Source of the DNA: Anaeromyxobacter dehalogenans 2CP-1
GTDB taxonomy: Bacteria > Myxococcota > Myxococcia > Myxococcales > Anaeromyxobacteraceae
Length of the DNA: 64,000 nt
NCBI RefSeq assembly: GCF_000022145.1
Contig: NC_011891.1
Coordinates: forward strand, 4,508,501 to 4,572,500
Direction of reading: 5' to 3'
Part shown: positions 25,051-61,604 of the stretch, one piece after another
Position numbering within the stretch: position 1 is the first letter of the stretch
How the letters are laid out: the number at the start of each line of letters is the position of its first letter
The notes under the pieces: model-generated
What the model saw: the letters and a program-made list of their open reading frames with translations, nothing else
The model's database searches: none
What the model was told of the DNA's origin: nothing
Made by a program: the position numbers and the translations under genes

Positions 25051-26835
25051 ATGGCTCGTCGGGCCGTCGCCCTGGGCGCCGTCCGCTCGCCGTGCTGGAG
25101 CCTCGTCGCCGCCGCGCTCGCGCTGCTCGGACCGTCCGGCCCGGCGACCGCCACCGAGCTCGACCTCGGGGTCGCGGACCTCGAGCTCCGCCTGGACACC
25201 ACGCTCCGCTACAACCTCGGCCTCCGCACCGACGCCGTGAGCCGCCGGCTCGGCGACAACCCCGCCTTCACCGCGGGCGAGAACAGCGTCTCGCAGGGCG
25301 ACCTCACCACGAGCCGGCTCGACGTGCTCGCCGAGCTCGACGCCTCCTGGCGGCACCGGTTCGGCGTCCGCGTCACCGCGGCCGGCTGGTACGACCAGGC
25401 CTACGTCCACGAGCGCGCCACCCGCAGCCCGCGGCTCGTCGCGCAGGGCATCCCCGGCTCGTACCTGAACGACGACTTCAGCCAGGTGGTCCGCCGCCGC
25501 TACCACGGCCCGTGGGGCGAGCTGCTCGACGCGTTCGCGTTCGCGCAGCTCCGGGCCGGCGGCGTCCCGGTGTCGCTGAAGGCGGGCCGCCACACCGTCT
25601 ACTGGGGCGAGTCGCTCATGCAGGCGGGGCTCACCCACTCGGTGGCCTACGCGCAGATGCCACTCGATCTCCAGAAGGCGTTCGCGAACCCGGGGGCCGA
25701 GCCGAAGGAGCTGTTCCGCCCGCTCGCCAGCGTCTCCGCGCAGGCGCAGCTCGCGCCCACCCTCTCGCTCGCCGCCCAGGTGTTCCTCGAGTGGCAGCCG
25801 TTCCTGTACCCGGAGGGCGGCACGTTCCTCGGCGCCTCCGACGCCACCTACGACGGGCCGGACGGCCTGTACCGGAACGGCGCGTACCTGGTGAACGGCG
25901 GCGTGAACTGGCCGCGCCAGGCGGGCGACGCCGGCGTGGCGCTGCGCTGGGCGCCGGCCTGGCTCGACGGCACGCTCGGGCTCTACTACCGGCGCTTCAC
26001 CGACAAGTTCGCGGCGGTGCTGCTCACCCGGAACCCGGGCGCGCAGGGGCCGCTCAGCCCCGAATACCCGTCGCCGTTCCGCTACCAGCAGTACTACGGC
26101 GCCGACGTGGACCTCCTCGGCGTGAGCCTGGCGAAGCAGGTGCTCGGGGTGAGCGTGGGCGCCGAGGCGTCGTGGCGCCACGGCATGCCGCTCGTCGCGC
26201 AGTCGCCCGGCTTCGCGGTCGCGCCGGCGCCGCCGCTCCAGGCCGCGCTGTTCCCGCACGGCCTCCCGCGCAAGATCGGCAGCTCCTACCAGGCGCGCGG
26301 CGACACGCTGCACGGCCTCGTCAACCTGCTGGGCGTCGTCCCCGGGGGCGAGGCCTTCTCCAGCGCGGCCTGGGCGCTCGAGCTCACCTTCAGCCGCCGG
26401 CTCCGGGTGACCGACAACGAGGATCTGTTCTACGGCGAGGGCTACGGCGTGTGCCGGCCGGATCCGGCGCTGGTGCAGGCGGGGCTCGCCCGCACCCGCC
26501 ACGACGGCTGCGCCACCCGCGGGCACGTCGGCCTCGGCGCGAGCCTCACGCCCACCTGGTTCCGGGTGGCCTCGGGCGCGGACCTGTACGTGCCGGTGAC
26601 GGTCTCGTGGACCGTCCGCGGCAACTCGCCGGTCGGCCAGGGCGGCAACCAGGCCTCGGGGAGCTGGACCGCCGGCGCCGGCCTCGACCTGCGGAGCCGC
26701 TACCGCGTCGAGCTGCGCTACGCGGACTGGTTCGGGAAGACGAGCGGGGGCGCCACGATCGACACGGCGAACGGGCTGCCCGCGCTCCTGAAGAGCCGCG
26801 GGAACGTGACGCTCACCGCGAAGACGACGTTCTAG
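25051..26835 (+). CDS. DUF1302 family outer-membrane beta-barrel protein
   Basis: A 594-residue secreted protein. The signal peptide is about residues 1-36, ending ATA before TELDLG. The body is rich in alternating beta strands with motifs such as AGRHTVYWGESLM and LELTFSRRLRVTDNED, and it ends in a C-terminal Phe (LTAKTTF), all as expected of DUF1302 outer-membrane proteins. First gene of a coupled five-gene operon with DUF1329, YCF48-like, RND and MFS genes. In Proteobacteria this set accompanies uptake or export of hydrophobic or aromatic compounds, so it is probably the outer-membrane channel or receptor. GGGGAGA lies seven bases before the ATG. Confidence 0.85.
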   Translation: MARRAVALGAVRSPCWSLVAAALALLGPSGPATATELDLGVADLELRLDTTLRYNLGLRTDAVSRRLGDNPAFTAGENSVSQGDLTTSRLDVLAELDASWRHRFGVRVTAAGWYDQAYVHERATRSPRLVAQGIPGSYLNDDFSQVVRRRYHGPWGELLDAFAFAQLRAGGVPVSLKAGRHTVYWGESLMQAGLTHSVAYAQMPLDLQKAFANPGAEPKELFRPLASVSAQAQLAPTLSLAAQVFLEWQPFLYPEGGTFLGASDATYDGPDGLYRNGAYLVNGGVNWPRQAGDAGVALRWAPAWLDGTLGLYYRRFTDKFAAVLLTRNPGAQGPLSPEYPSPFRYQQYYGADVDLLGVSLAKQVLGVSVGAEASWRHGMPLVAQSPGFAVAPAPPLQAALFPHGLPRKIGSSYQARGDTLHGLVNLLGVVPGGEAFSSAAWALELTFSRRLRVTDNEDLFYGEGYGVCRPDPALVQAGLARTRHDGCATRGHVGLGASLTPTWFRVASGADLYVPVTVSWTVRGNSPVGQGGNQASGSWTAGAGLDLRSRYRVELRYADWFGKTSGGATIDTANGLPALLKSRGNVTLTAKTTF

Positions 26836-26853
26836 ACGCTCGAGGAGGATGCC

Positions 26854-28200
26854 ATGACGGTGCGTGAACGGGCGTGCGCGGCGCTGCTGGCGGCGGTGCT
26901 CCCTGCGGCCGTCCCGGCGCTCTCGCCGGAGGAGGCGCGGCAGCTCGGCTCGACGCTCACCGCGCTGGGCGCGGAGCGGGTGGGCAACGCGGACGGGACC
27001 ATCCCGGCGTACACCGGCGGCCTCACCACCCCGCCGCCCGGCTTCGTCGCGGGCAGCGGCAGCCGCCCGGATCCTTTCGCCGCGGAGCGCCCGCTCCTCT
27101 CCATCGACGCCGCCAGCGCGGCCCGCCACGCCGACCGGCTCTCGGAGGGCGCGAAGGCGCTCCTGGCGCGCTACCCCGGCTTCCGGATGGACGTGTACCC
27201 GACCCACCGCACCGCCGCGTTCCCGGCGTTCGTGACCGAGCAGACCGTGCGCGCCGCCACCTCCGCCCGCACCACCCACGGCGGCGTCTCGCTCGCCGGC
27301 GTGCACGCGGCCTACCCGTTCCCCATCCCGAAGACCGGCAACGAGGCGATGTGGAACCACCTGGTGCGGTTCAACGGGCGCTGCCTCCACAAGCGGATCT
27401 CCGCCTACCGCATGGAGGCGTCGGGCCGGCTCACGCACGCCAGCACCGCCCGCGTGATCGAGGACTACCCGTACTGGACCGAGCGGACCGCGTCACCGAA
27501 CGTGTACTTCCGGTTCCGGATCCAGTACGAGGCCCCTGCGCGCCGCGCCGGCGAGGGCTTCATCCTGGTGGACCCGATCGACTACCTGGAGCGCGGCCGC
27601 CGCTCCTGGCAGTACCTGCCCGGCCAGCGGCGCGTGCGCCTCGCGCCCGACCTCGCCTACGACACCCCGAACGCCGCCACCTCCGGCGCGCAGACCTTCG
27701 ACGACGCGCTGCTGTTCAACGGCGCCATGGACCGCTTCGACTTCACGCTGGTGGGGAAGAAGGAGATCTACGTCCCGTACAACGTCTACCGCGCCGCCTA
27801 CCAGGCGCGGCCGGAGGAGCTGTTCCGGAAGCACTTCGTGAACCCGGACCTGTTCCGCTGGGAGCTGCACCGGGTGTGGGTGGTGGACGCGCGGCTGAAG
27901 CCGGGCAAGCGCCACGTGTACGCGCGGCGGGTGTTCTACCTCGACGAGGACAGCTGGGCGATCCTGACCAGCGACCAGTACGACGCCCGCGGGCAGCTCT
28001 GGCGCGTGGGGATCGCGTTCATGGCGCCGAGCTACGACGTGCCGGCCATGTGGGCCGACGCGTTCCTGCACTACGACCTCGCCACCGGCGGCTACGGCAT
28101 CAACAGCTGGCCCGGCAAGGACGGCTGGATCCGCACCGGCGCCTGCCCGGGCGACGCCGAGTGGTCGCCGGACGCGCTCGCGGGATCGGGCCTGCGCTGA
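26854..28200 (+). CDS. DUF1329 family periplasmic protein
   Basis: A 448-residue exported protein (signal about residues 1-22). The N-terminal LGSTLTALGAERVGNADGTIPAYTGG is diagnostic of DUF1329. The middle and C-terminal parts (RRSWQYLPGQRRVRLAPDLAYD, KLKPG-type RLKPGKRHVYARRVFYLDED) form the beta-sheet shell that resembles the lipoprotein carriers LolA/LolB. It is likely a periplasmic or membrane-peripheral carrier working with the DUF1302 barrel and the RND pump. GAGGAGG precedes the ATG; the stop overlaps the next start by one base (TGATG). Confidence 0.87.
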   Translation: MTVRERACAALLAAVLPAAVPALSPEEARQLGSTLTALGAERVGNADGTIPAYTGGLTTPPPGFVAGSGSRPDPFAAERPLLSIDAASAARHADRLSEGAKALLARYPGFRMDVYPTHRTAAFPAFVTEQTVRAATSARTTHGGVSLAGVHAAYPFPIPKTGNEAMWNHLVRFNGRCLHKRISAYRMEASGRLTHASTARVIEDYPYWTERTASPNVYFRFRIQYEAPARRAGEGFILVDPIDYLERGRRSWQYLPGQRRVRLAPDLAYDTPNAATSGAQTFDDALLFNGAMDRFDFTLVGKKEIYVPYNVYRAAYQARPEELFRKHFVNPDLFRWELHRVWVVDARLKPGKRHVYARRVFYLDEDSWAILTSDQYDARGQLWRVGIAFMAPSYDVPAMWADAFLHYDLATGGYGINSWPGKDGWIRTGACPGDAEWSPDALAGSGLR

Positions 28201-29270
28201 TGCGCCGCCGGGCCCACGTCGCGGCGCTGGGCCTGCTCCTCGCGGCGTCCCCCGCCGCCGCGGCGGGGTTCGTGGATCCGCTCGACCAGCCCGCCGGCCC
28301 GAGCGCGCTCGCGGCGCGGCGGCCGCTGCTGTCGGTGGCCCGCGCGGGCGAGCGCCTGGTGGCGGTCGGCGAGCGCGGGCTGGCGGTCCTCTCCGACGAC
28401 GGCGGCGCGCGCTGGACGCAGGCGGCGGTGCCGGTGAGCGAGGACCTCACCGCGGTGCGCTTCGCGTCGCCGCGGCTCGGCTGGGCGGTGGGCCACGGCG
28501 GCGTGGTGCTCGCGAGCGAGGACGGCGGCGCGCGCTGGGAGCGACGCCTCGACGGGCGCGGGCTGGCGCGGCTCCTCGACGCGTGGGCGCGGGACGGCGC
28601 CGGCCGGATCGCGCCGGCCGCGCTGGCGCAGGCGCGCGACCTCGCGGCGCGCGGCCCGGACCAGCCGCTCCTCGACGTGTGGCTGGACGCCGCCGGCCGC
28701 GAGGGCTTCGCGGTGGGCGCGTTCGGCCTCGCGCTCGCCACCCGCGACGGCGGGCGGACCTGGACGCCCTGGCTCGACCGGCTCGAGAACCCGCGCGCGC
28801 TGCACCTGCACGCGCTCCTCGAAGCCCGCGGGGCGCTGTACCTCGCCGGCGAGCAGGGCCTGCTCCTGCGGCTCGACCGCGCCGCCGGGCGCTTCCGGGC
28901 GGTGGCCATCCCGTACGCGGGCACCCTGTTCGGCCTCGCCGCCGACGGGCGCGCGCTGCTCGCGTTCGGGCTGCGCGGGACGGTGCTGCGCAGCGTGGAC
29001 GGCGGGCCCTGGCGCAAGGTCGCGTCCGGCGTGGAGGCGGCGCTCACCGGCGGCGCGGCGCTGCCCGACGGGCGGCTGGCGCTCGCGGCCGCCTCCGGCG
29101 AGCTGCTCGTGTCGGCGGACGGCGGCGCCACCTTCGAGCGCGTCTCGGCGCCGGGCGCGGTGCTCGCGCCCGCCTTCGCGATCGCGCCGGCGGGTCCGGG
29201 CGCGCTGGCGGTGGCCGGCGCCGAGGGCGTGCGGGTGGTGGCGCTGCCGCGCCCGCGCGAGGCGCCGTGA
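28200..29270 (+). CDS. YCF48/BNR-repeat beta-propeller protein
   Basis: A 356-residue exported protein (signal about residues 1-21). It carries repeated Asp-box motifs of type SxDGGxxW (SDDGGARW, SEDGGARW, TRDGGRTW, SVDGGPW, SADGGATF), building a beta-propeller like the photosystem assembly factor YCF48. It overlaps its upstream neighbour by one base and its downstream RND gene by four (GTGA). In related operons a YCF48-type protein always sits beside the RND subunit, suggesting an assembly or adaptor role in the periplasm. Confidence 0.85.
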   Translation: MRRRAHVAALGLLLAASPAAAAGFVDPLDQPAGPSALAARRPLLSVARAGERLVAVGERGLAVLSDDGGARWTQAAVPVSEDLTAVRFASPRLGWAVGHGGVVLASEDGGARWERRLDGRGLARLLDAWARDGAGRIAPAALAQARDLAARGPDQPLLDVWLDAAGREGFAVGAFGLALATRDGGRTWTPWLDRLENPRALHLHALLEARGALYLAGEQGLLLRLDRAAGRFRAVAIPYAGTLFGLAADGRALLAFGLRGTVLRSVDGGPWRKVASGVEAALTGGAALPDGRLALAAASGELLVSADGGATFERVSAPGAVLAPAFAIAPAGPGALAVAGAEGVRVVALPRPREAP

Positions 29271-31708
29271 GGCGGGCGAGCGCGCGCGCGCCGGGGCACG
29301 AGCGCCCCGACGCAGCCGGTCCTGCGACGGGGAACGCGTCCTCGCGCGGCGCGCCCGGGCCGTTCGATCCCGCCGAGGGGAGCTGGCTGGAGCGGCTGGT
29401 GTTCGGGCACCGCGCCGCGGTGGTGATCCTGACCGCGCTCGTGACGCTCGCGCTCGGGGCCGCGGCCGCCACCCGCCACGTGGTGAGCGCCGACCTGGAC
29501 CGGATCACGCCCGGCTCCCACCCGTTCGTGCAGGCCGCCCGCGCCCGCGCCGACCGGCTGCGCGGCCTCGGCAACACCCTCCTCGTGGTGGTCGAGAACC
29601 CGCGCGGCGACGTCTGGGATCGCGCCTACCTGGAGGCGCTCCGCGACGCGAGCGACACGCTGTTCCTCATGCCCGGCGTGGATCGCCCCTGGGTGAAGTC
29701 GCTCTGGACGCCGTCGGTCCGCTGGACCGAGGTGACCGAGGAGGGCTTCCGGGGTGGCCCGGTGATGCCGGACGCGGCCGACGGCTCGCCGGAGGCCATC
29801 GCGGCGCTGCGCCGGAACGTGCGGCGGGCCGGGCTGACGGGGACGCTGGTCGCGCTCGACGAGCGATCCAGCGCGGTGCAGGTGCCGCTGCTGGATCGCG
29901 ATCCGGTCACCGGCGCCGGCCTCGACTACCGTGCGCTCTCGGCGGAGCTGGAGGCGCTGCGGCGGCGCCTCGAGGGGCCGGCCGGCGACGGGCCGGTGCG
30001 CGTGCGCATCGTCGGCTTCGCGAAGCGGGTGGGCGCGATCCTCGACGGCACCGTGGCGGTGGGCGCCTGGTTCGGCGTGGCCGCCGCCATCGCGGCCGCC
30101 ATCCTGTGGCTCTCCTCGCGCTGCCTCCGGAGCACGGCGCTGGTGCTCGCCTGCTCGGGCGTGGCGCTGGTGTGGCAGCTCGGCATCGTCTCGCTGCTGG
30201 GCGTGCCGCTCGATCCGTTCTCGGTGCTGGTGCCGTTCCTGATCTTCGCCATGGGGGTGTCCCACGGCACGCAGAAGATGAACGGCGTGCTGCAGGACGT
30301 GGGGCGCGGCGCCGACCGGCGGCTCGCGGCTCGCCGCACCTTCCGCCGGCTCTTCCCGGCCGGGCTCACCGCGCTCCTCACCGACGCGGTCGGGTTCTCG
30401 GTGCTCGCGCTGGTGGACGTCCCGGCCATCCGGCAGCTCTCCCTCGCCGCCACGGTGGGCGTGGGCGTGCTCATCGTCACGAACCTGGTGCTGCTGCCGG
30501 TGCTGCTCTCGTACACCGGGGTGAGCGGCGCGGCGGCGCTGCGGAGCCTCCGCGGCGAGGCCGGCGGCGCGGGGCCCTGGGGCGCCTGGCGGCTGGTGGA
30601 CCGCTTCACCGAGCCGCGCTGGGCGGCGGGGATCCTGGCCGTGGCCGCGGTGCTCGTCGGGATCGGGCTCGCCGCCGGGCGCGGGGTGCCGGTCGGCTCG
30701 ACCCAGCCCGGCGCGCCGGAGCTGCGCGCCGACGCCCGCTACAACCAGGACGACGCCTACCTCGCGGCCCACTACGGCGCGTCGAGCGACGTGTTCGCGG
30801 TGATGGTGGAGACGCCGCCCGAGGGCTGCACCTCCTGGGAGACGCTCGTCGAGGCCGACCGGCTGGGCTGGGCGCTGCGGCAGGTCCCGGGCGTGCAGGC
30901 CACCGCCTCGCTCGCCGACGCGGTCCGGCAGATCACGGCGGGCTCGTTCGAGGGCTGCCCGAAGTGGCTGACGCTCTCGCGCGACCCGCGGATCCTGGGG
31001 GGCGCGGCCGAGGCGGCTGGGACGCGCAACCCCGACCTGTTCGACCCGGAGTGCACGGTCATGCCGGTGCTCGCGTACCTCTCCGACCACCGCGCCGACA
31101 CGCTCGACCGCGTGGTGGCCGCCGCCGAGGCGTTCGCGCGCGACCACGCCTCGCCGGGCCGCGCCTTCCTGCTCGCAGCGGGGAGCGCGGGCGTGGAGGC
31201 CGCCACCAACCTCGCCGTCCGCGAGGCGCAGCCGCGCATGACCGCCTGCGTGTTCGCGGCGGTGGTGGCGCTCTGCCTGCTGGTCTTCCGGAGCTGGCGG
31301 GCGGTGGTGGTGACGGTGGTGCCGCTCGCCACCACCGCGGTGCTGTGCCGGGCGGTGATGGCGTGGCTGGGCATCGGCATGACCCTCGCCACGCTGCCGG
31401 TCATCGCGCTCGGCGTGGGCATCCCGGACTTCGCGCTCTACCTGCTCTCGGTCCAGCTCGCGCACCAGCGCGCGGGCGCGCCGCTCGGCGAGGCGCACCG
31501 GCGCGCGCTCCGCTTCACCGGGCGGCCGGTGGTGCTGGTGGCCGTGACGCTCGCGGCGGGCGTCGTCACCTGGGCGTTCTCGCCGCTCCGCCTCCAGGCC
31601 GACATGGGCATCCTGCTCACCTTCATGTTCCTCGGGAACATGGTCGCCGCGGTGGCGCTCGTGCCGGCGCTCTCCCGGCTCCTCCTCCGGGAGGTCCCCG
31701 CCCGATGA
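29267..31708 (+). CDS. MMPL/RND superfamily transporter
   Basis: An 813-residue inner-membrane RND-type permease. There is one helix near residues 48-67, a periplasmic loop, a five-helix bundle (about 263-440), a second loop, and a second bundle from about residue 653, with VPFLIFAMGVSHGTQKMN and VIALGVGIPDFALYLLSVQ as paired signature helices. This HpnN/MMPL-type class moves lipids or other hydrophobic cargo with proton energy. The GTG start overlaps the YCF48-like stop; its stop overlaps the MFS ATG. It is shorter than tripartite AcrB pumps and has no adaptor gene; DUF1302/DUF1329/YCF48 presumably replace it. Confidence 0.88.
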   Translation: MRRASARAPGHERPDAAGPATGNASSRGAPGPFDPAEGSWLERLVFGHRAAVVILTALVTLALGAAAATRHVVSADLDRITPGSHPFVQAARARADRLRGLGNTLLVVVENPRGDVWDRAYLEALRDASDTLFLMPGVDRPWVKSLWTPSVRWTEVTEEGFRGGPVMPDAADGSPEAIAALRRNVRRAGLTGTLVALDERSSAVQVPLLDRDPVTGAGLDYRALSAELEALRRRLEGPAGDGPVRVRIVGFAKRVGAILDGTVAVGAWFGVAAAIAAAILWLSSRCLRSTALVLACSGVALVWQLGIVSLLGVPLDPFSVLVPFLIFAMGVSHGTQKMNGVLQDVGRGADRRLAARRTFRRLFPAGLTALLTDAVGFSVLALVDVPAIRQLSLAATVGVGVLIVTNLVLLPVLLSYTGVSGAAALRSLRGEAGGAGPWGAWRLVDRFTEPRWAAGILAVAAVLVGIGLAAGRGVPVGSTQPGAPELRADARYNQDDAYLAAHYGASSDVFAVMVETPPEGCTSWETLVEADRLGWALRQVPGVQATASLADAVRQITAGSFEGCPKWLTLSRDPRILGGAAEAAGTRNPDLFDPECTVMPVLAYLSDHRADTLDRVVAAAEAFARDHASPGRAFLLAAGSAGVEAATNLAVREAQPRMTACVFAAVVALCLLVFRSWRAVVVTVVPLATTAVLCRAVMAWLGIGMTLATLPVIALGVGIPDFALYLLSVQLAHQRAGAPLGEAHRRALRFTGRPVVLVAVTLAAGVVTWAFSPLRLQADMGILLTFMFLGNMVAAVALVPALSRLLLREVPAR

Positions 31709-45325: not shown

Positions 45326-46492
45326 ATGGGGAAGCGAGCACTGGTGCTGGGCGGCGGCTTCGCCGGCCTGGAGAGCGCGGTCCGGCTGCGCGCGCGCGGC
45401 TTCGAGGTCACGCTGGTCTCCGACCGGCCCTACCTGTTCATCCACCCCACCTCGATCTGGATCCCGACCGGCGAGCTGGCGTTCGACGACGCCTGCCTGG
45501 ACCTCGCCGGCGTGGCCGCGCGCCGCGGGTTCGAGCTGCGCGTCGGGAAGGTCGAGGAGATCGAGGGCGCCTCCCGGCGGGCGAAGGTGGACGGGCGCCG
45601 GCTCGCCGCCGACCACCTGGTGGTCGCGCTCGGCGCCTCCCGGCTCCGGCCGGAGGGGGTCGAGCACACGGTGACGCTCGGCGGGGACCCCGCCGCCGCC
45701 ACCTCGTTCCGCATGGCGCTGGAGGCGCTGCTCGCGCGAGGCCGCGGGCGCATCGCGGTCGGCTTCGGCGGGAACCCCAAGGCGCCCTCGGCGGTGCGCG
45801 GGGGCCCGGCGTTCGAGGTGGGGTTCAACCTCGACGCGCTCCTGCGCCGGCGCGGCCTGCGCGACCGGTTCGAGCTGACGTTCTTCGCGCCCATGGCGCG
45901 GCCCGGCGAGCGCATGGGCGCGAAGGCGGTGGAGGCCGTGGGGCGGATGCTGGCGCGCCAGGGCATCGCCGCCCGCACCGGCCGGAAGATCCTGTCCTTC
46001 GACGCGGGCGGGGTGGCGCTGGAGGGCGGCGAGCGCATCGACGCCGACCTGGTCGCGTTCCTCCCGGCAGGCGATGGGCACCCGCTCGCGAGGGCGTCCG
46101 ACCTGCCGCTCGACGAGGCCGGCTTCGTGCGCGTGGACTCGGGCTGCGCCGTCCCCGGGATGCCGGGGGTGTGGGCGGTCGGCGACGTGGCCGCGCTGGA
46201 GGGGCCGGCGTGGCGCGCGAAGCAGGGACACCTGGCGCAGGCGATGGCGCGGGTCGCCGCGGACAACGCCGCCTCCTGCGAGGCGGGCGGTGCGCCGTGC
46301 GCGAGCTACCTCGGGCACCTCGCGATCGTGTGCCTGATGGACACCGGCACCGGCGGCGCGCTGGTGTACCGGGATGATCGGACGGAGCGCCTGGTGCCGC
46401 TGCCGGTGGTGGGCCACTGGATGAAGAAGGCGTGGGGACGGTACTTCAAGGCGGAGCGGCGCGGGGTGGTGCCGAGGTTTCCGGGGATGTAG
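45326..46492 (+). CDS. NAD(P)/FAD-dependent oxidoreductase, sulfide:quinone reductase-like
   Basis: A 388-residue flavoprotein. ALVLGGGFAGLESAVRLRAR is the ADP-binding FAD motif, DHLVVALGAS the second dinucleotide segment, and PGVWAVGDVAAL the FAD-closing motif. The C-terminus (GHWMKKAWGRYFKAER) is amphipathic, as in SQR and FccB relatives that dock on the membrane. The two catalytic Cys pairs of classical SQR are not clearly placed (Cys only near residues 54, 274 and the 315-335 region), so the substrate may not be sulfide. GGGAGGAC lies four bases before the ATG. Confidence 0.82.
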   Translation: MGKRALVLGGGFAGLESAVRLRARGFEVTLVSDRPYLFIHPTSIWIPTGELAFDDACLDLAGVAARRGFELRVGKVEEIEGASRRAKVDGRRLAADHLVVALGASRLRPEGVEHTVTLGGDPAAATSFRMALEALLARGRGRIAVGFGGNPKAPSAVRGGPAFEVGFNLDALLRRRGLRDRFELTFFAPMARPGERMGAKAVEAVGRMLARQGIAARTGRKILSFDAGGVALEGGERIDADLVAFLPAGDGHPLARASDLPLDEAGFVRVDSGCAVPGMPGVWAVGDVAALEGPAWRAKQGHLAQAMARVAADNAASCEAGGAPCASYLGHLAIVCLMDTGTGGALVYRDDRTERLVPLPVVGHWMKKAWGRYFKAERRGVVPRFPGM

Positions 46493-47135
46493 GGGGGGGC
46501 TGGCTTTGAGGGTGCGGAGTTCGGAAGCTCGCTCGTGGTGAGCTTGTCGAAGCACGGGCGGGGGGCGGTTCTGAAGCCGCTCGTGGTGAGTTGGTGTCGC
46601 TCGTGGTGAGTTGGTGTCCGCTCGTGGTGAGTTGGTGTCGCTCGTGGTGAGTTGGTGTCCGCTCGTGGTGAGCTTGTCGAACCAACGGGCGGGGGTGCGG
46701 TTCTGAAAGGCGCTCGTGGTGAGTTGGTGTCCGCGCGTGGTGAGCTTGTCGAACCAACGGGCGGGGGGCTTTGAGGGTGCGGGGGCGGTCGGGGGCGGGG
46801 CTGCCTGACCGGAACCGGGGGCGGCGGGGATCGGCTTGCGAGAGGCTCGTGGGTGAGGCGCGGGGCGCAGGGCGCGGGGCGGGCCGGGCGAATCACCGTT
46901 AGTGAACGGCTGCTTGCGGCCCAACGGGAACGACCTTCGCGCTTGACGGGGTCGGGGCGGGGAGCGGCTTGCGCGAGCGGAATGGCTGGGGCGCAGGGCT
47001 CTGGGGCGTCGGCAGGGCGCGGCTGAGGCGCTGGAGGACGACGCGAGGGGTCGCGGGACCCTGGGGGCGTTCGCGCTTCGGGGGCGAGTTTCGTGCGCTT
47101 CACGGAGGGCGGAATCCTCGTGCGATGCTTCGTGC
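46493..47135. other. Intergenic region rich in repeats, no gene
   Basis: About 640 bases between the flavoprotein stop and the HNH start. The first half is the repeat array described separately. CTTTGAGGGTGCGG occurs on both sides of the array (46504-46517 and about 46769-46782). The second half (46785-47135) is G-rich with one small hairpin, CCGTT-AGTG-AACGG (46896-46909). No protein or RNA gene is supported. Confidence 0.7.
46531..46757 (+). repeat. Tandem array of 20/21-bp CTCGTGGTGAG units
   Basis: Eight occurrences of (T/G)CGTGGTGAG start at 46533, 46581, 46601, 46622, 46642, 46663, 46714 and 46735. The core five are spaced 20, 21, 20 and 21 bases because units alternate between TGTCG and TGTCCG endings, giving a 41-base higher-order unit present twice. 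Outer copies continue into AGCTTGTCGAA(C)C and ACGGGCGGGG instead of AGTTGGTGTC. No unique spacers, so it is not CRISPR. Confidence 0.85.
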
Positions 47136-48359
47136 ATGGACAACGCAACCGAGTTCACGAAGCGTCTCGTCGAGCTGCTGCGGTCGGAGCGGCACGCCAT
47201 GGCGGAGTTCCTGGTCGCGCTGGCGGAGTTCGACCGGCGGGCCCTATGGCGGGAGCGGGGGCACACCTCGCTCTTTTCGTTCCTCCGGCGCGAGCTGGGG
47301 CTGTCCGCCGGCGCGGCGCAGTACCGGAAGACGGCGGCGGAGCTCATCCAGCGGTACCCGGCGGTGGACGGCGCGCTCCGGGAGGGCAAGCTGTGCCTGT
47401 CCTCGGTCTGCGAGCTGGCGAAGGTGGTGACCACCGAGAATTTCGCGGAGATCCTGCCGCGGTTCTACGGGCTGTCGAGCCGGGATGCGGCGGAGGTGGC
47501 TGCGTCGATCCGGCCGGTGGAGAATCCGCCGCGGCGCGAGGTCGTCGTGCCGGTCCGGTCGGTCTCTGTGCCGTCGGCGGTGACGGTGCCTGCTGCGGAG
47601 CCGATTCTATTTCGGGCGCCCGAACTGAATGTACCCAGCAGGGTCGAGACCTCTCACTCAGAGGTCGCTCGCACTGAGCCTGAGTCCGCTCGCAGCGAGC
47701 CTGTCGACCTGCGGGCGGCGACGCCTGTCCCGAAGCCCAGCTCCATCGACTGGCTCGACGGCGATCAGGCGCGGATGCACCTCACCGTGTCCAAGGCCTT
47801 CCTGAAGAAGCTCGAGGCGGCTCGGGATGCGCTCTCGCACTCCATGCCCGGTGCCACCCGCGAGAACGTCCTCGAGGCGGCGCTCGACCTGCTCCTCGTC
47901 GAACGCGACCGGCGCAAGGGGCTCACGGCTCGGCCGCAGAAGACGCCTCGTCCCTCCACGCGGCCGGACCACATCCCGGCCCACGTGCGCCGCGAGGTCT
48001 GGGCCCGCGACTGCGGGCGGTGCACCTTCGTCCTCGCCTCGGGCGAGCCGTGCGGGTCCACGCACCGGCTCGAGCTCGATCACATCGTCCCGCGAGCACG
48101 CGGCGGGGGCTCGACGGCGGACAACCTCCGCATCCGTTGCCGGGGGCACAACCTCGAGGAGGCGCGGCGGGTGTTCGGGAACGCGCTCGTGGACGCGTAT
48201 GCGGGCGCGGGCGGCGGCGGCGGGGCGCCGCTACTCGGAGCCGCGGCGGCTCACAGGCTCACGCGCAGCGCCACGCCGGCGTCCAGCACGGGCGCCTTGC
48301 CGAGCCGCGGATCGGGCGAGGCGCCGAGGAACGCGGCGGCGCCGGCGGGGACCTCGTAG
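47136..48359 (+). CDS. HNH endonuclease domain protein with in-frame repeat insertion
   Basis: A 407-residue protein. The N-terminal helical region (about 1-125) begins EFTKRLVELLRSERHAMAEF and resembles the helical front part of repeat-associated HNH proteins. Residues about 177-191 are encoded by a copy of the local dispersed repeat. Then come a short DNA-binding-like stretch (AFLKKLEAARDALSHSMPGA) and the HNH domain: VRREVWARDCGRCTF, HRLELDHIVPRARGG, NLRIRCRGHNLEEAR. The last 36 or so residues (after position 371) are antisense to the convergent beta-barrel gene (109-base overlap), suggesting loss of an earlier stop. Often multicopy in myxobacteria. Substrate unknown. Confidence 0.8.
   Translation: MDNATEFTKRLVELLRSERHAMAEFLVALAEFDRRALWRERGHTSLFSFLRRELGLSAGAAQYRKTAAELIQRYPAVDGALREGKLCLSSVCELAKVVTTENFAEILPRFYGLSSRDAAEVAASIRPVENPPRREVVVPVRSVSVPSAVTVPAAEPILFRAPELNVPSRVETSHSEVARTEPESARSEPVDLRAATPVPKPSSIDWLDGDQARMHLTVSKAFLKKLEAARDALSHSMPGATRENVLEAALDLLLVERDRRKGLTARPQKTPRPSTRPDHIPAHVRREVWARDCGRCTFVLASGEPCGSTHRLELDHIVPRARGGGSTADNLRIRCRGHNLEEARRVFGNALVDAYAGAGGGGGAPLLGAAAAHRLTRSATPASSTGALPSRGSGEAPRNAAAPAGTS
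47664..47708 (+). repeat. Copy of the dispersed repeat inside the HNH coding sequence
   Basis: GTCGCTCGCACTGAGCCTGA followed by GTCCGCTCG and GAGCCTGTCGAC reproduces the 20-then-21-base phase of the array at 46581-46690, with changes confined to the centre of each unit. It stays in frame, encoding VARTEPESARSEPVD. Confidence 0.7.
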
Positions 48360-49852
48360 GCGAAGCGGAGCTCGCCGCCCTTTCGTCCCATGTGGCCGGC
48401 CACGAACGTCTCGACGCGCAGGTAGGTCAGCGCCAGCACCGAGTGGTCGAGGCGCACCACGAACGTGCGATCCGACAGGTTCCCGAGCGCGGAGAGCGTG
48501 AAGATGGTGTTGTTCCAGCGGCCGGGCTTGGGCAGCGTCACGAACGTCCCGGCGTAGTGGCGGCCGAGGTAGAACGGGCGGAACGCGGTGGGGTCCTGCT
48601 GCACCAGCGCGGGCGCGGCGGGGTTCGTGAGATCGAGCCGCGGGGCGCCGGCAGCGAGGAACGGGTACACGTCCGCGTCCGAGTAGCCGGCGTCGTCGAA
48701 GAAGTACTCGGCGCCGACCAGGACGGCGTCCTCGTCCGAGTAGTTCGCCGACCAGCTCCCGCCGAGCACGATCTGCGGGGTGAAGCCGCGCGGCTCGTAC
48801 GGCGCGTAGCCGAACGGGTCCGTCAGCGTGGGCGCGGTCTTCCGCCAGCGGGGCCCGTCGGTGCCGGTGCGCAGCGCGGCCTCGGCGTAGAGGTCGAAGT
48901 CCCCGAGGCCGCCGGACAGGTCCACGCCGAAGCGCGGGCGGTGGCCGTCCTGCACCATGGCGTCGAGCCCGAGCTCGGCGGTGCCGGCCACCAGCTCGGC
49001 CCGGCCCCCGGCGCCGACGCGGCCGACGCGGTCGGTGGCGCGCGCCTCGCCGGCCAGGTCCTCGAACGCGAGCACGCCGTAGAAGTTCCAGCCGCGCGCC
49101 TCCCAGGGCACGTGCACCTTCACCATGCTGGTGCCGCTGCGCGCGTCGTAGACGGCCAGCGGGTCGCGCTTCGAGGGGTGGAGGAAGTCGGTGGGGTTCC
49201 AGAACTTGCCCACGCCCCACTTCACGTGCTGCTTGCCGGCGGTGACGAACGCGCGCCGGCCGAGGTCGAAGTTCACCCACAGCTGATCGAGCGTGCCGCG
49301 CGGGTTCGAGGCGGCGGTGGCGGCGGACTCGGTCACGCCGGCGCTGGGCTGGGTGAGCGCGACGCTGGTCCGCGAGAGCGTCGGGTCGTAGCTCATGCGG
49401 CCGAGCACGAACGCGCGGACCCGATCGTTGGGCCGGGCGTCGAGGTAGGTGTCGAGCAGGTTCGGCGAGGCGAGGTACCAGTCGGCGGGGTCCACGCCCT
49501 CCTGCCAGGTGCCGATCGTGCGCAGGTAGAGCTGCCCGCCGATGCGGAGCGGGTCCTCGCGCTCGCGCGAGATGATCCCCTCGGGCGGCGGGGGCACCGC
49601 GTTGGGCGAGCCGCGGCTCCCGAACAGCTCGGCCTCGACGTCGCCGCGGTCGCGCGCGGCGGGAGCCGGCGCCGGCGCGGTGCCCTCGGCGCCGCGCGTG
49701 GCCTCCGGGGCCGGTGCGGCGGCGGCGGGCGGCGCGGCGGGCGCGCCGAACAGGTCGTCCTCGCTGGGGCGGTCCTGGGCCGAGGCGGGCCGGCCCGGGA
49801 GCGCGCAGAGGGCGGCCGCGGCGAGCAGCGCGGCGGTGCGGGGCGAGGGCAT
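48251..49852 (-). CDS. Outer-membrane beta-barrel protein (DUF1302/porin-like)
   Basis: A 533-residue exported protein: signal peptide about 1-25 (PASAQD), an Ala/Pro linker to residue about 75, then beta strands. GRRAFVTAGKQHVKWGVGKF, WNPTDFLHPSKRDPLAVYD, WNFYGVLAFEDLAG and LGGSWSANYSDEDAVLVG resemble DUF1302 barrels. Last gene of a minus-strand operon of ABC ATPase, two permeases and a LolA-like protein; it is the likely outer-membrane end of that export route. Its 3' end overlaps the HNH gene by 109 bases. Confidence 0.8.
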   Translation of the reverse strand: MPSPRTAALLAAAALCALPGRPASAQDRPSEDDLFGAPAAPPAAAAPAPEATRGAEGTAPAPAPAARDRGDVEAELFGSRGSPNAVPPPPEGIISREREDPLRIGGQLYLRTIGTWQEGVDPADWYLASPNLLDTYLDARPNDRVRAFVLGRMSYDPTLSRTSVALTQPSAGVTESAATAASNPRGTLDQLWVNFDLGRRAFVTAGKQHVKWGVGKFWNPTDFLHPSKRDPLAVYDARSGTSMVKVHVPWEARGWNFYGVLAFEDLAGEARATDRVGRVGAGGRAELVAGTAELGLDAMVQDGHRPRFGVDLSGGLGDFDLYAEAALRTGTDGPRWRKTAPTLTDPFGYAPYEPRGFTPQIVLGGSWSANYSDEDAVLVGAEYFFDDAGYSDADVYPFLAAGAPRLDLTNPAAPALVQQDPTAFRPFYLGRHYAGTFVTLPKPGRWNNTIFTLSALGNLSDRTFVVRLDHSVLALTYLRVETFVAGHMGRKGGELRFAYEVPAGAAAFLGASPDPRLGKAPVLDAGVALRVSL

Positions 49853-49862
49853 GGGCGCGCTC

Positions 49863-50648
49863 CTACCGGCTCTTCGACTCGAGCCAGGCCTTGGTGAAGA
49901 GGTTGGCCTCCAGCGAGCGGAGGTCGATCTCGCGGATCAGGATCAGGGTGGAGTTCCCCTTCTCGATCTCGTCGTAGATGCGGATCTCCTCCGGGTACCA
50001 GACCTCGCCCTTCTTCGACTCCGAGTAGATCTTCCGCCAGCGCGGCGTGTAGGTGGTGCGCATGAGCCGGCCGGAGAGCGCCACGTCCTGCCGCTTCAGG
50101 ATGTTGAGGGTGGCCTTGTCCACCCACAGCCGCCGCACCGGGTAGGAGACGTCCACCCCCGGCTTCACCGTGAGCACGAGCTCGTGCACGTCGAACACGC
50201 CCAGCTTCGAGTCGCCCTTCCACTCGGCGGTGTAGTCCTCGGACAGGCGCGGCTCGGAGAGGTCGTCGCGGCGCGTGTCGGTGCCGCCGATGCGCTCGCG
50301 CTCGGTGCGCCGCTCCCACCGGCCGGTCGACGGCTCGTAGCTCCACAGGTTCTTGTCGATGCGCAGGTAGCCCTTGCCGGCCTCGGCCTTGGGCTTGGTG
50401 AACAGGAAGAGCTGCTTGTCGTCCTCGTCGCGCCGGTAGACCAGCAGCTCGTAGACGACGTCGGTCTTCCCCTTCTCCTTCGCCTCCATGTAGCAGAGCG
50501 CCTTCCAGTCGCCGGAGTTGCGCTGGCGGTCGTCGAGCGTGGCGACCACGCGCTTCAGCTCGTCGGGCCCGAGCGCCGCGGCGGGCGGCGCCGCGAGCGC
50601 CAGGGCGGCGGCGGCGAGGGAGAGGACGGCGGCGAGGCGTGCGTGCAT
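49863..50648 (-). CDS. LolA-like outer membrane lipoprotein-sorting family protein
   Basis: A 261-residue periplasmic protein (signal about 1-25). The order of strands (ALCYMEAKEKGKTDVVYELL, LFTKPKAEAGKGYLRIDKNL, LTVKPGVDVSYPVRRLWVDK, GEVWYPEEIRIYDEIEKGNS) matches the LolA-like 'outer membrane lipoprotein-sorting' family that sits beside ABC or RND pumps. It is a carrier shell for a lipid moiety. Ten bases separate it from the barrel gene downstream and eighteen from the permease upstream. Confidence 0.85.
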   Translation of the reverse strand: MHARLAAVLSLAAAALALAAPPAAALGPDELKRVVATLDDRQRNSGDWKALCYMEAKEKGKTDVVYELLVYRRDEDDKQLFLFTKPKAEAGKGYLRIDKNLWSYEPSTGRWERRTERERIGGTDTRRDDLSEPRLSEDYTAEWKGDSKLGVFDVHELVLTVKPGVDVSYPVRRLWVDKATLNILKRQDVALSGRLMRTTYTPRWRKIYSESKKGEVWYPEEIRIYDEIEKGNSTLILIREIDLRSLEANLFTKAWLESKSR

Positions 50649-50666
50649 GGTGCGGGTCCCTGGGGT

Positions 50667-51974
50667 TCAGCCGATGTGGTGCATGGCGGTGACCGGCCGC
50701 AGGCGCGCCGCCCGTCGGGCGGGGAGCAGCGCGGCCACGACGGTCACGCCGGCGAGGAACAGCACGTCGGCGAGGATGGCGCCGGGCTGGAGCAGGAACG
50801 AGAGCTTCTCCTGCATGAGGAACAGCTGCATGCCCTCGGGCACGCCGATGCCGGCCAGGTTGAGCAGGAGCGCGATCCCGGCCGCCACCGCCGCGCCGGC
50901 GGCGGCGCCGGTGAGGCCGAGCAGCGCCGTCTCCAGCACGAACAGCCACAGCACCTTGCGGCGCTGCATGCCGATGGCGCGCAGCGTGCCGATCTCGCGC
51001 GTCCGCTCGCGGATGGCGATGGCGAGCGTGTTGAGGATGCCGATGACGACCACCACCATGAGCACGAACACGAGCAGCGCGGTGAGCGCGCGCAGGCCGA
51101 GGATGAACTGCTTGAACTGGCCCATCTCGTCTTCCCAGGTGGTGACGTCGAGCTTCTGCCCGGTCCAGTCCTCGCTCGGCACCTTCTGCATGAGCTTGAT
51201 CCAGTACGGCTGCGACTCGGGCTCCATCACCCGCCAGCCCGCCTCGGCCAGCGCGGCGCGCAGCCGGCTCGCCACCGCCGGCGCGTCGGCCGGGTCCTTC
51301 AGGTAGAGGTGCAGCGCGCCGGTGGCGGTGGGCGCGAGGCCGTAGAGCCGGCGCAGCGTGTCCCCCTGGATGAAGGCGCTGAACGCGGAGAGCAGCCCGA
51401 CGTTGCGGGCGATCACCGCCACCCGGACGTCGGCGGTGTTGTTGACGCCGCGGGTGGTCGGGGCGGAGAGCGTCACCACGTCGCCCACCTTCACCTTGAG
51501 CCGGTCGGCCTGCCCCTGGAACAGCAGCACCGTGTCCGGCTGGGCCAGATCCTCGAGGCGGCCCTCCACCGGGCGGATCACCTTCGCGAACCCGCGCTCC
51601 TGGGCCACGTCCACCCCGCCCAGCACCAGGTCCATCGACGAGCTCTCGGAGACGGCCTTGGCCCAGCCGCGCCCGCGCACCGCGACGTAGTCGATCTCCG
51701 GGACGAGCGCCCGCACCGTGTCGAGCGCGCGCGGGTACTCGGACACGATGGGCGCGGCGCTGCCCGAGGTGATCTTGAAGAACCCGCCCACGTTCACGTG
51801 GCCGGTGAGCAGGGTGGTGGCCGACACCATCATGGCCCGCTCCACCCCGCCGGTCAGGCTGGAGAGCAGCACGAGCAGCGCCGTCACCGCCGCGAGCGCG
51901 CCGCCCAGGAACAGGTTGCGCCGCGTGTGCCGGGTGAGGTTGCGGGCGGCGATCTGGAGGTCCACGCCGATCAC
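50667..51974 (-). CDS. FtsX/MacB-type ABC transporter permease
   Basis: A 435-residue permease with the LolC/E and MacB topology: one N-terminal helix (LFLGGALAAVTALLVLLSSL), a large periplasmic domain (about 45-300), then three helices with MVVVVIGILNTLAIAIRERTREIGTLRAIGMQ (coupling motif) and a final DVLFLAGVTVVAALLPARRAARLRPVTAM. The GTG at 51974 has GGAGGA six bases upstream; that SD lies within the end of the preceding permease gene. Partner of the ATPase and the larger permease in a three-component exporter. Confidence 0.88.
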   Translation of the reverse strand: MIGVDLQIAARNLTRHTRRNLFLGGALAAVTALLVLLSSLTGGVERAMMVSATTLLTGHVNVGGFFKITSGSAAPIVSEYPRALDTVRALVPEIDYVAVRGRGWAKAVSESSSMDLVLGGVDVAQERGFAKVIRPVEGRLEDLAQPDTVLLFQGQADRLKVKVGDVVTLSAPTTRGVNNTADVRVAVIARNVGLLSAFSAFIQGDTLRRLYGLAPTATGALHLYLKDPADAPAVASRLRAALAEAGWRVMEPESQPYWIKLMQKVPSEDWTGQKLDVTTWEDEMGQFKQFILGLRALTALLVFVLMVVVVIGILNTLAIAIRERTREIGTLRAIGMQRRKVLWLFVLETALLGLTGAAAGAAVAAGIALLLNLAGIGVPEGMQLFLMQEKLSFLLQPGAILADVLFLAGVTVVAALLPARRAARLRPVTAMHHIG

Positions 51975-51976
51975 GA

Positions 51977-54118
51977 TCAGTCCTCCGTCGCCATCGCCTC
52001 GACGGGCGTGACGCGCATGGCGAGCAGCGCCGGGTAGAAGCCGGAGAGCACGCTCACCACCACCACCACCAGGATCGACACGGCCACGCTGCCGCCGCCC
52101 AGGGTAGGCATGAGCGCGGGGCCCGAGAACAGGAAGTTGAGGAGGTCGGAGGTGGCGGGGATGCCGCCCGCGGCGCGCACCGCCCACACCCCCAGCCCGC
52201 CGAGGCCCGCGCCGGCCAGCCCGAACGCCAGGCCCACCGAGGCGATCTCCACCAGCATCATCGCGAGCACGAACCGGCGCTGGGCGCCGATGGCGCGCAG
52301 CGTGCCGATCTCCTTCACCCGCTGGAGCGTGGCCATCACCATGGCGTTGTTGATGATGACGAGCGCGATGGCGAAGAAGATCACCACCGCGCTGTAGAGG
52401 ATCACCCGCAGCAGCGTGACGAACTGGCCCACCAGCCCGGACGCCTGCTGCCAGTCGATCACCTTCAGGTGCAGCCCGGCCCGGTCCGAGGCCGCCTGCA
52501 CGTCCCGCATGGTCTCGCGCAGCCGCGCCGGGTCGCGCAGGATCAGCGCCGCGTTCAGCGCCACGCCGCGGTCGATCTCCTCCTGCGAGTACGTGCGCGT
52601 GGAGAGATCCTCGGCGGGCCGGTCCGCCCGGCGGTCGGCGAGCAGCCGCCCCTCGTCGATGCGGGCCGCGCGCGACTCGCCCTCCAGCGCGCCGCCGCCG
52701 CCGCCGAACAGCGCCGCCTCGGCGTCGTCGCGCGCCAGGTCGGTGGCGCCCACCGAGCGCTTGATGGCCTCGATCTCCGCCGCCCGCTCGCGGGTCATGT
52801 AGCCGTACAGATCGCGGAACGACTGCAGGTCCATCACGCTCATCATCCCGGCGATGCCGGACTTCTCGATCTGCCGGAACTGGATGAACCCGTAGACCTT
52901 CACGTTCACCGAGTTGAAGTACCCGCTCTTCGCCGGCGCCTTGATGGTGATGGTGTCGCCGACGTTGATGACGTACAGGCGCAGCAGCGGGGCGAGCTGG
53001 TCGTAGAAGATCCGGTAGCGCGCGTCGAAGCTCGCGTCGTCGGCGTCGAACAGGCGCGCGAGCAGCGCGGGCAGCGCCTCCGCCGCCGCGGCCGGGCCGA
53101 GCGCGCGCCGCAGCCGGACGGTGGCCTCCTCCGCCTGGATGGGGTCGAGCTGCAGGAGGATGTCCTTCAGCCCGGCGCGGTTCTCGCGCACCCAGCGCTG
53201 CAGCTCCTCGTCGTCCGCGATGCGGCGGCCGCGCCGGTCGCGCGCCTCCTTGATCTGGTCGAGCCGCCGCGCGTTCCGGAGCTTCAGCCACTCCTCGGCG
53301 TACTGCTTGCCCACCAGGATCCCGCGACGGCCGCGCGGGATCATCTCGCCCTCGGCCACCTGCGCGAGCTGGAACGCGCGGAAGAACGCGTCCACGTCGG
53401 TGCCCACGTAGCGGATGAACGTGAAGCCGCCGTCCATGGACAGCTTCGCGATCCGGTTCTCCAGGAACTCGAGGTTGCCGTAGCGGTCGCGGTCGAACCC
53501 GGCCCAGAACGCGTCGTCCGCGGCGCGGGTCAGGTCGGCCCACTCCCGCCGCCGGTCCTCGGCGTCGCGGCCCTCCAGGTCGGCGATGCTGCGCGCCTGG
53601 CCCAGCTCGTCGCGGAGCAGGCCCACCATCCGGCGCACGTGCGCCTTGCGCGCCTCGTAGCCGCGCAGCGCCTCCGGCGTGCGGTCGCCGCCCTCCACGC
53701 GCCGCACGTCGGCGCGGAGCCGCTCCAGGGCGACGTCGAACACGTTCCCGGTGGCGACCATGGCCTGGTCGATGCCCATCGGCACCACCGTCTCCACGTT
53801 CGGGACCGTCGAGAGGACCTGCTTCACCTTCGCGAAGTCCTCGATGGGCTCGAGCAGCGACTCGCCGCGGAGGCCGCCGTACAGCTCCAGCGAGTCCTCG
53901 GAGCGGGCGTCGTACACCTGCAGCTGGCCGCCCAGGCTGCCCTGGATCGAGGTGCGCATGCCGCGGTCGATCGAGTCGAGGAGCGACAGCCCCAGCACCA
54001 CCAGGAACGCGCCGCCCAGCACGATGGCGCCGATGATGGAGGTGCGGACCTTGCTCGCGGCCAGGTTGCGGAACGCGATCCGCAAGAGGACCAGCAGCGC
54101 GTCGCGCCGGCCGGTCAC
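51977..54118 (-). CDS. FtsX/MacB-type ABC transporter permease with large periplasmic insert
   Basis: A 713-residue permease starting at a GTG overlapping the ATPase stop (GTGA). One N-terminal helix (IIGAIVLGGAFLVVLGLSLL) is followed by an unusually large periplasmic region (about 45-580, versus about 200-300 in LolC or MacB) rich in charged helices, then the three-helix block with VIFFAIALVIINNAMVMATL and RVKEIGTLRAIGAQ. It is the heavier half of the heterodimer; the insert may contact the LolA-like carrier or the cargo. ABC type VII mechanotransmission is likely for the family. Confidence 0.87.
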   Translation of the reverse strand: MTGRRDALLVLLRIAFRNLAASKVRTSIIGAIVLGGAFLVVLGLSLLDSIDRGMRTSIQGSLGGQLQVYDARSEDSLELYGGLRGESLLEPIEDFAKVKQVLSTVPNVETVVPMGIDQAMVATGNVFDVALERLRADVRRVEGGDRTPEALRGYEARKAHVRRMVGLLRDELGQARSIADLEGRDAEDRRREWADLTRAADDAFWAGFDRDRYGNLEFLENRIAKLSMDGGFTFIRYVGTDVDAFFRAFQLAQVAEGEMIPRGRRGILVGKQYAEEWLKLRNARRLDQIKEARDRRGRRIADDEELQRWVRENRAGLKDILLQLDPIQAEEATVRLRRALGPAAAAEALPALLARLFDADDASFDARYRIFYDQLAPLLRLYVINVGDTITIKAPAKSGYFNSVNVKVYGFIQFRQIEKSGIAGMMSVMDLQSFRDLYGYMTRERAAEIEAIKRSVGATDLARDDAEAALFGGGGGALEGESRAARIDEGRLLADRRADRPAEDLSTRTYSQEEIDRGVALNAALILRDPARLRETMRDVQAASDRAGLHLKVIDWQQASGLVGQFVTLLRVILYSAVVIFFAIALVIINNAMVMATLQRVKEIGTLRAIGAQRRFVLAMMLVEIASVGLAFGLAGAGLGGLGVWAVRAAGGIPATSDLLNFLFSGPALMPTLGGGSVAVSILVVVVVSVLSGFYPALLAMRVTPVEAMATED

Positions 54119-54828
54119 CGCGCCGCCTCCGCCGCCGCGCCCTGCCCCGCCTCGCGGCCCACGATGCGCCCGTCGGCGATGCGGATCACCGCGCTGGCGT
54201 GCGCCATCACCTTGGGATCGTGGGTGGAGAAGACGAACGTGGTGCCGTCGCGCGCGTTCATCTCCTTCATGAGGTCGATGATGTTCTCGCCGGTGGCCGA
54301 GTCGAGGTTGGCGGTGGGCTCGTCCGCGAGCACCAGCGACGGCGCGGTCACGAGCGCGCGGGCCACCGCGACGCGCTGGCGCTGGCCGCCGGACAGCTCG
54401 CTGGGACGGTGCCGGGCGTGGCTGGCGAGGCCCACCGCCTCGAGCAGCCCCAGGACGCGCGCCTCGCGGTCCCGCCGCGAGAGCCCGCCCTGGAGCAGCA
54501 GCGGGAACTCCACGTTCTGGAACACCGACAGGACCTGGACCAGGTTGAAGCTCTGGAAGATGAAGCCGATGGTGCGCAGGCGGAGGTCGGTGAGCTGCCG
54601 CTCGCTGAGGCGCGAGGTGTCCTTCCCGTCCACCTGCACGACGCCGGTCGTGGGCGTGTCCACGCAGCCGATGAGGTTGAGCAGGGTCGTCTTCCCGCTG
54701 CCCGACGGCCCGGCGATGGACAGGAACTCGCCCCGCCCGATCTCGAGCGTCACGTCCCGGAGCGCCGGCACCACCGTCTTGCCGAGCATGTAGTCCTTCG
54801 AGACGCCCTGCACCGCGACGATGGACAT
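54115..54828 (-). CDS. LolD/MacB-type ABC transporter ATP-binding protein
   Basis: A 237-residue ATPase: Walker A GPSGSGKTT, Q-loop FIFQSFNLV, signature LSGGQRQR, Walker B LVLADEPTANLDS, switch His in FVFSTHDPKVM. This is the LolD/MacB/FtsE group. The ATG at 54828 is preferred over the GTG at 54834 because GGAGG is nine bases before it. First gene of the export cassette, overlapping the large permease. Confidence 0.92.
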   Translation of the reverse strand: MSIVAVQGVSKDYMLGKTVVPALRDVTLEIGRGEFLSIAGPSGSGKTTLLNLIGCVDTPTTGVVQVDGKDTSRLSERQLTDLRLRTIGFIFQSFNLVQVLSVFQNVEFPLLLQGGLSRRDREARVLGLLEAVGLASHARHRPSELSGGQRQRVAVARALVTAPSLVLADEPTANLDSATGENIIDLMKEMNARDGTTFVFSTHDPKVMAHASAVIRIADGRIVGREAGQGAAAEAAR

Positions 54829-54911
54829 GCCCACGCTCCTCCGCGGCCCCAGGGGCCGCGCGCGCCGCTTCTACCCCAAGTGACACCAACGGGCTAGCGA
54901 CATCGTGCTGC

Positions 54912-58250: not shown

Positions 58251-58254
<4 letters not shown>
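57226..58254 (+). CDS. RND efflux periplasmic adaptor (HlyD/AcrA family)
   Basis: A 342-residue membrane-fusion protein (signal about 1-23). Lipoyl half-motifs ASVTQVHVEEGQRVAAGQLL and SLLRAPFAGTVQSRRVNTGD flank a short alpha-hairpin (about 95-145); the beta-barrel and membrane-proximal domains follow (VPKSALVQRGDLTGVFV, VLVRAGLRAGETVI). It has no lipobox, so it is probably periplasmic. It overlaps both neighbours by four bases (ATGA, GTGA). Confidence 0.92.

Positions 58255-61604
<3,350 letters not shown>

Follow-up and report, generated by a model that had tools for sequence, protein, structure and literature searches.

A five-gene cassette of Anaeromyxobacter dehalogenans 2CP-1 links a LolCDE-like engine to a LolA-like carrier and an outer-membrane barrel

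Little is settled about the way in which hydrophobic molecules, lipopolysaccharide (LPS) and lipoproteins apart, traverse the periplasm and exit through the outer membrane. Carrier and barrel systems with a resistance-nodulation-division (RND) engine have been published: AmeABCD of Castellaniella, described in 2018, acts on monoterpenes, and its deletion raised dye accumulation, which points to export (PMC6394551); the relative PP_0765/0766 of P. putida, where the RND form was modelled, is required for growth-related use of Tween 20 (PMC10866462); in Thalassolituus an MMPL-LolA fusion and a porin gene (TOL_3187/3188) are induced on n-C28 (PMC6304351). With an ATP-binding cassette (ABC) engine, a 2026 report proposes an ABC/LolA-like/Omp85 cluster, BBJ23-29, in Borrelia (PMC13078400). 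Here we describe a cassette that bears on this problem, in a window of 64,000 nucleotides, the whole stretch of DNA analysed, which covers positions 4508501-4572500 of the single 5,029,329-base contig of Anaeromyxobacter dehalogenans 2CP-1. The cassette occupies 48251-54834 of the window and encodes, in order, an ATPase, permease 1, permease 2, a LolA-like carrier and a barrel.

The cassette appears to be a LolCDE-like engine serving a barrel-terminated carrier relay. We propose, with a probability of about 0.55, that its five genes form one export relay, in which LolCDE-like extraction of a lipophile would be followed by hand-over to the barrel. The LolA-like protein would take the cargo into its hydrophobic half-barrel, cross the periplasm and deliver to the approximately 18-stranded barrel in place of LolB, and the barrel would let the cargo out, either into the outer membrane or through it. 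The RPxExx[LM]FG peptides in the flexible N-terminal tail of the barrel are the probable docking site for the carrier or for permease 1.

The initial annotation had placed an ATPase, two permeases, a LolA-like carrier and a barrel at 48251-54828, and open reading frame (ORF) and translation reading found all five there, head to tail on the - strand (Table 1). The genes of the ATPase and permease 1 overlap by 4 nt, and the spacers that follow measure about 2, about 18 and about 10 nt; because the packing is so tight, the five genes are probably co-transcribed. The G+C content at third codon positions is 0.98-1.00 across all five genes and lower in the long antisense ORFs; the five called frames are therefore the coding frames. 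The closest named relative in our scan was Anaeromyxobacter sp. PSR-1, whose proteins are 98-99% identical.

The engine is of the LolCDE type. The ATPase matches ABC_tran in Pfam (E 3.2e-31), its best NCBIfam equivalog is LolD_lipo_ex (E 1.2e-66, under the cut-off of that model), and its orthologues are 61-98% identical. Both permeases match FtsX (E 7.8e-16 for permease 1, E 3.5e-21 for permease 2) and, under the cut-off, lolCE (E 3.6e-13 and E 2.7e-23). The model of permease 1 (predicted local distance difference test score, pLDDT, 82) has as its nearest PDB folds LolE/LolC of LolCDE (Z 26.1, root-mean-square deviation (rmsd) 6.1, 369 residues), with MacB lower (Z 20.6), and carries about 300 additional periplasmic residues, mostly helical. 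A LolD-like ATPase and a LolC/E fold of permease 1 thus give the cassette the ABC engine of the canonical Lol system, though below the NCBIfam equivalog cut-offs. MacB-type efflux, considered because the initial annotation had called the permeases MacB/LolC-type, was dropped, as neither a MacA adaptor nor a TolC-type exit duct is among the five genes, which instead encode a LolA-like protein and a barrel, and the fold of permease 1 is closer to LolC/E.

The carrier is a member of PF17131 (LolA_like, E 1.3e-39, 136.2 bits against a cut-off of 30) and not of the canonical LolA family PF03548. It matches the PDB sequence 3buu, 'LolA superfamily protein NE2245' (E 2.1e-10), has a single hydrophobic segment, at its N-terminus, and gave no match as a query against a plasmid collection. 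Canonical LolA (PF03548 E 3.6e-25) is encoded apart from the cassette, at genome position 118334, and better-scoring LolC/E candidates lie at about 1356396-1357631 and at 3977147-3978103 of the genome. Judged by these family assignments, the cassette is distinct from the standard Lol system of the genome. No PF03550 match, the mark of LolB, was found anywhere in the genome. The LolB acceptor is not universal, and many Lol-bearing species are without it.

These results bear on an alternative in which the cassette is a second, specialised Lol system, whose engine would extract a subset of lipoproteins and whose carrier would ferry them to a barrel acting as receptor or flippase, inserting or surface-exposing them in a genome without LolB. 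Such a role would fit the undetected LolB, the naming of PF17131 as a lipoprotein-sorting protein and the best match of permease 1, which is to LolE of lipoprotein-bound or inhibitor-bound LolCDE; it fits poorly with a genome that holds its own canonical LolA and stronger LolC/E candidates elsewhere, and with a carrier family that is also paired with RND pumps and found in non-ribosomal peptide synthetase (NRPS) clusters, where lipoprotein cargo is unlikely. We regard this alternative as unlikely. That the LolA-like protein might serve only lipoprotein sorting had been named in the initial annotation as a danger to its proposal; this too is unlikely, because of the separate LolA, the better LolC/E candidates and a paralogue of the carrier in NRPS clusters of other myxobacteria.

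A paralogue of the carrier, about 36-40% identical, occurs with permeases inside NRPS-type clusters of the sampled Myxococcus-group genomes, and these clusters encode condensation, adenylation, A-KR-PCP, O-methyltransferase and CmlA-like enzymes. The hydrophobic substrates of the RND relatives (PMC6394551, PMC10866462, PMC6304351), together with this paralogue, favour a lipophile over lipoproteins, and the cargo would accordingly be a lipid or lipophilic metabolite. Six loci of the Myxococcus and Archangium group (L302-L306, L035) hold a second set of LolA-like protein and LolCE-type permeases within NRPS clusters.

The barrel sequence gave no useful match to PDB sequences or Pfam, and we therefore turn to its model. 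AlphaFold2 with 18 orthologues produced 18 strands of at least 8 residues (pLDDT 74.6, barrel part mostly 75-97) behind a disordered stretch of residues 1-98. Among PDB folds the closest are those of OprD/Occ porins (Z 21.2, rmsd 3.1, 296 residues), followed by the alginate exporter AlgE (Z 19.4, rmsd 4.0, 330 residues). As OprD/Occ proteins are uptake porins, this ranking could suggest an uptake or retrograde route, in which the barrel would act as a porin that admits a hydrophobic or aromatic compound, with the carrier moving this compound inward or keeping the inner membrane free of it. The induction of RND/LolA-like/porin genes in Thalassolituus on long-chain alkanes (PMC6304351) agrees with such a route, yet those type VII ABC systems that have been characterised work by extraction or expulsion and not by import (PMC12646458), and the increased dye accumulation on AmeABCD deletion points to export (PMC6394551). 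Uptake thus appears improbable.

In the barrels, the signal peptide is directly followed by [QA]-[DE]-R-P-x-E-x-x-[LMI]-F-G or near variants, often in two copies. The core [DE]xx[LIM]FG is present in one or two copies in the disordered tail of 71 of 81 barrel orthologues (mean 1.28, against 0.003 in shuffled tails), copies that are not independent since the 81 barrels are related by descent, with the remaining tail highly variable in length and sequence. Three related barrels from a second phylum-level group also have the motif. As a genome-wide address on other proteins the peptide was rejected: the RPxExx[LM]FG DNA pattern occurs in this gene and at one other site, matching the backward control and chance. 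Since the pattern is no commoner than chance beyond the barrel gene, the binding partner of the tail peptide is probably within the cassette. The conserved RPxExx[LM]FG peptide at the mature N-terminus of the barrel is a new feature. In some RND-linked barrels the tail is a looser acidic-aromatic sequence, DYDALFKEA for example, whose likeness to the myxobacterial motif is only suggestive. Acidic-aromatic tails (DALF, SLFG) similar to that motif also follow the signal peptide in the barrels of L243, L246 and L247, loci of the second phylum-level group with an RND pump in view for two of the three.

The barrels behind the two kinds of engine are homologous by profile comparison. A profile built from ABC-cassette barrels alone matched 29 of 1372 ORFs in the surveyed loci and none of the reversed decoys, and among its matches are barrels that follow RND pumps, with E values as low as 2e-12. 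ABC-cassette and RND-linked barrels compare at E 5.8e-16, a value that leans upward because the RND-linked rows were themselves picked by matches to the ABC-barrel profile, and RND-linked barrels compare with DUF1302 at E 2.4e-14. The core common to the consensus sequences of all three barrel groups is the signature G-[KR]-Q-x-x-x-WG, after which comes NP-D or something akin to it. The description of the barrel as DUF1302-like is therefore supported indirectly, by way of the RND-linked barrels, whereas direct matching is weak: the window barrel has no match to PF06980, three of 18 orthologues match weakly (best E 0.005), and the ABC-barrel and DUF1302 profiles compare with a probability of 11% (E 0.0027). 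The profile of the carriers likewise gave no decisive match to the single DUF1329 protein. A lack of similarity between the barrels, which would have undone the first proposal, was not what we found.

The five-gene unit is widespread in Myxococcota, cultured Myxococcus species included. Of 195 genomes sampled from the phylum, 137 encode carrier orthologues or paralogues, and 51 of 80 named loci had flanks long enough to judge; 49 of these 51, almost all from Myxococcota, hold the complete ordered set of ATPase, permease 1, permease 2, carrier and barrel. DUF1302 genes occurred in 40 of 193 sampled genomes. Because of these counts, the ABC cassette looks common within the phylum and the RND cassette accessory.

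Some loci deviate in gene content. The carrier is followed by a predicted multi-span membrane protein in L094 and by a radical-SAM-like ORF in L100, each in place of the barrel, and at L079:1965-3475 the ATPase directly adjoins the carrier without the two permeases in between.

We extended the comparison beyond the window with PF17131 loci sampled from two phylum-level groups, reached through metagenome-assembled genomes titled Spirochaetia and Candidatus Coatesbacteria; Proteobacteria lay outside this survey. Sixty loci of up to about 12 kb each were read, and a pump was counted when within three same-strand genes. An engine was present in 55 of the 60, mostly with a barrel downstream: RND pumps in 26, ABC/FtsX in 28 and both in one; the other five had neither. 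These proportions are rough, since pumps were called automatically and the sampling leaned towards carriers with high scores and good flanks. On a quick carrier tree the engine type is strongly clustered (4 changes for ABC and 6 for RND, against about 22-23 with shuffled labels), and few engine switches are therefore indicated. The idea of two engines feeding one architecture thus extends outside the window, with a LolA-fold carrier genetically tied to a homologous barrel behind either RND or LolCDE/FtsX-type ABC pumps in three phylum-level groups.

The same counts speak to a reading without transport, in which the engine would act by FtsEX-like or YbbAP-TesA-like mechanotransmission, the carrier-like protein being a regulator and the barrel a mere neighbour. 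Type VII ABC proteins are capable of signalling, or of extraction for hydrolysis, without transport (PMC12646458); here, however, 49 of 51 loci have the barrel next to the other genes, and PF17131 accompanies RND and ABC pumps equally often, which leaves this reading very improbable.

Several observations weigh against the export relay itself. The nearest folds of the barrel include uptake porins besides the exporter AlgE, and the resemblance of permease 1 to lipoprotein-bound LolE is also compatible with lipoprotein cargo. Homology of the barrel to DUF1302 is indirect, being clear only through the RND-linked barrels. Two of the 51 cassettes (L060, L100), and likewise L094, are without an adjoining barrel, and no barrel gene was seen beside the NRPS-linked paralogue in the stretches read.

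More tentatively, and with less confidence than we place in the relay, PF17131/DUF1329 carriers may form one general class of lipid and lipophile export across the envelope, in which RND and LolCDE-type engines can replace each other and a large barrel is reserved for the route, the myxobacterial barrel capturing the loaded carrier, or the engine, through RPxExx[LM]FG and so replacing LolB. Were this true, a LolA-fold shuttle that has its own barrel and occurs with either of two unrelated motors would stand as an export principle of its own, next to tripartite TolC pumps, Lpt and Lol. The shuttle-barrel unit may also bear on the origin of LolA, and the tail peptide is short and hence directly testable.

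Table 1. Positions in the window of the ABC cassette, the barrel tail motifs and the RND cassette.
Feature	Position	Strand	Evidence and remarks
ABC ATPase, LolD/MacB-type, 239 aa	54115..54834	-	GTG start, in-frame ATG at 54828; ABC_tran and LolD_lipo_ex matches
Permease 1, LolC/E-type, 713 aa	51977..54118	-	FtsX match, structure model
Permease 2, LolC/E-type, 435 aa	50667..51974	-	FtsX and lolCE matches
LolA-like periplasmic carrier (PF17131), 261 aa	49863..50648	-	PF17131 and PDB 3buu matches
Outer-membrane beta-barrel, 533 aa, ~18 predicted strands	48251..49852	-	Structure model
Tail motif copy 1, EDDLFG within RPSEDDLFG, barrel residues 31-36	49745..49762	-	Motif search
Tail motif copy 2, EAELFG, barrel residues 73-78	49619..49636	-	Motif search
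DUF1302 barrel	25051..26835	+	PF06980 E 2.1e-95
DUF1329 LolA-fold carrier	26854..28200	+	PF07044 E 8.1e-135; PF17131 E 9.4e-7 over 47 residues, just under cut-off
YCF48/BNR-like protein, counterpart absent in ABC operon	28200..29270	+	PSII_BNR E 9.4e-13
HAE3-type RND pump (true start slightly upstream)	29363..31708	+	TIGR00921 HAE3 E 4.6e-36 under cut-off; MMPL E 2.7e-9; 12 predicted membrane segments

Around the cassette, an HNH-nuclease-like ORF (47136-48359, + strand) converges on the barrel gene with about 109 bases of 3' overlap (48251-48359). Between it and an oxidoreductase gene, low-complexity translated repeats at 46446-46757 (THHER, TTSDTNSPRA) suggest short DNA repeats. Just upstream of the cassette, a set of TolC-like, adaptor and RND pump genes lies on the + strand at 55889-61604, as judged by eye from ORF translations; three different export designs are therefore encoded within about 37 kb.

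The first reading of this window held that the ABC cassette mirrors its RND cassette, with the same slots filled in each. The two are related but diverged, and the slots agree only roughly; the order differs, the RND cassette running barrel, DUF1329, YCF48, RND and the ABC operon being without YCF48. The architecture is better supported than could have been known from the window, with gene order, prior art and cargo corrected. The claim that the design is little described needs qualifying in view of the published RND forms and the Borrelia ABC proposal, although in the literature covered, which left out most subscription journals and all preprints, we found no paper that brings the ABC and RND forms together, and none on the tail peptide. 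The accessible part of a survey of M. xanthus ABC-transporter mutants (PMC4103005) gave no gene that could be mapped to the cassette.

Compared with known systems, the cassette has in common with MacAB-TolC the type VII ABC fold; MacAB-TolC has the MacA adaptor and TolC, both absent from the operon, and permease 1 is structurally nearer LolC/E. With AmeABCD and PP_0765/0766 it shares a LolA-fold carrier adjoining a related barrel and served by an inner-membrane pump, an arrangement whose RND version is present in the window itself at 25051-31708. AmeABCD differs in its HAE3 RND engine, where the cassette has ABC/FtsX, and in its extra YCF48-like protein, its gene order and its diverged DUF1329 carrier. 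Thalassolituus TOL_3187/3188 likewise combines a pump and a LolA-like domain, directly followed by a porin gene, but its RND/MMPL engine is fused to the carrier, and its authors propose a porin-delivery route. The Borrelia BBJ23-29 cluster, in the part of its description that was available, resembles the cassette in its type VII ABC, a LolA-like protein annotated as lipoprotein-sorting, an outer-membrane barrel and a proposed delivery of non-polar ligands, and departs from it in an Omp85-type barrel, a single homodimeric permease and two TPR chaperones, with no RND counterpart mentioned there. LolCDE-LolA(-LolB) shares the LolD-type ATPase, the pair of LolC/E-type permeases and the LolA-fold periplasmic carrier. 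The cassette differs from it in a carrier of PF17131 instead of PF03548, in the roughly 300 extra residues of permease 1 and in a genetic end-point that is a barrel and not LolB, the canonical Lol genes being encoded separately.

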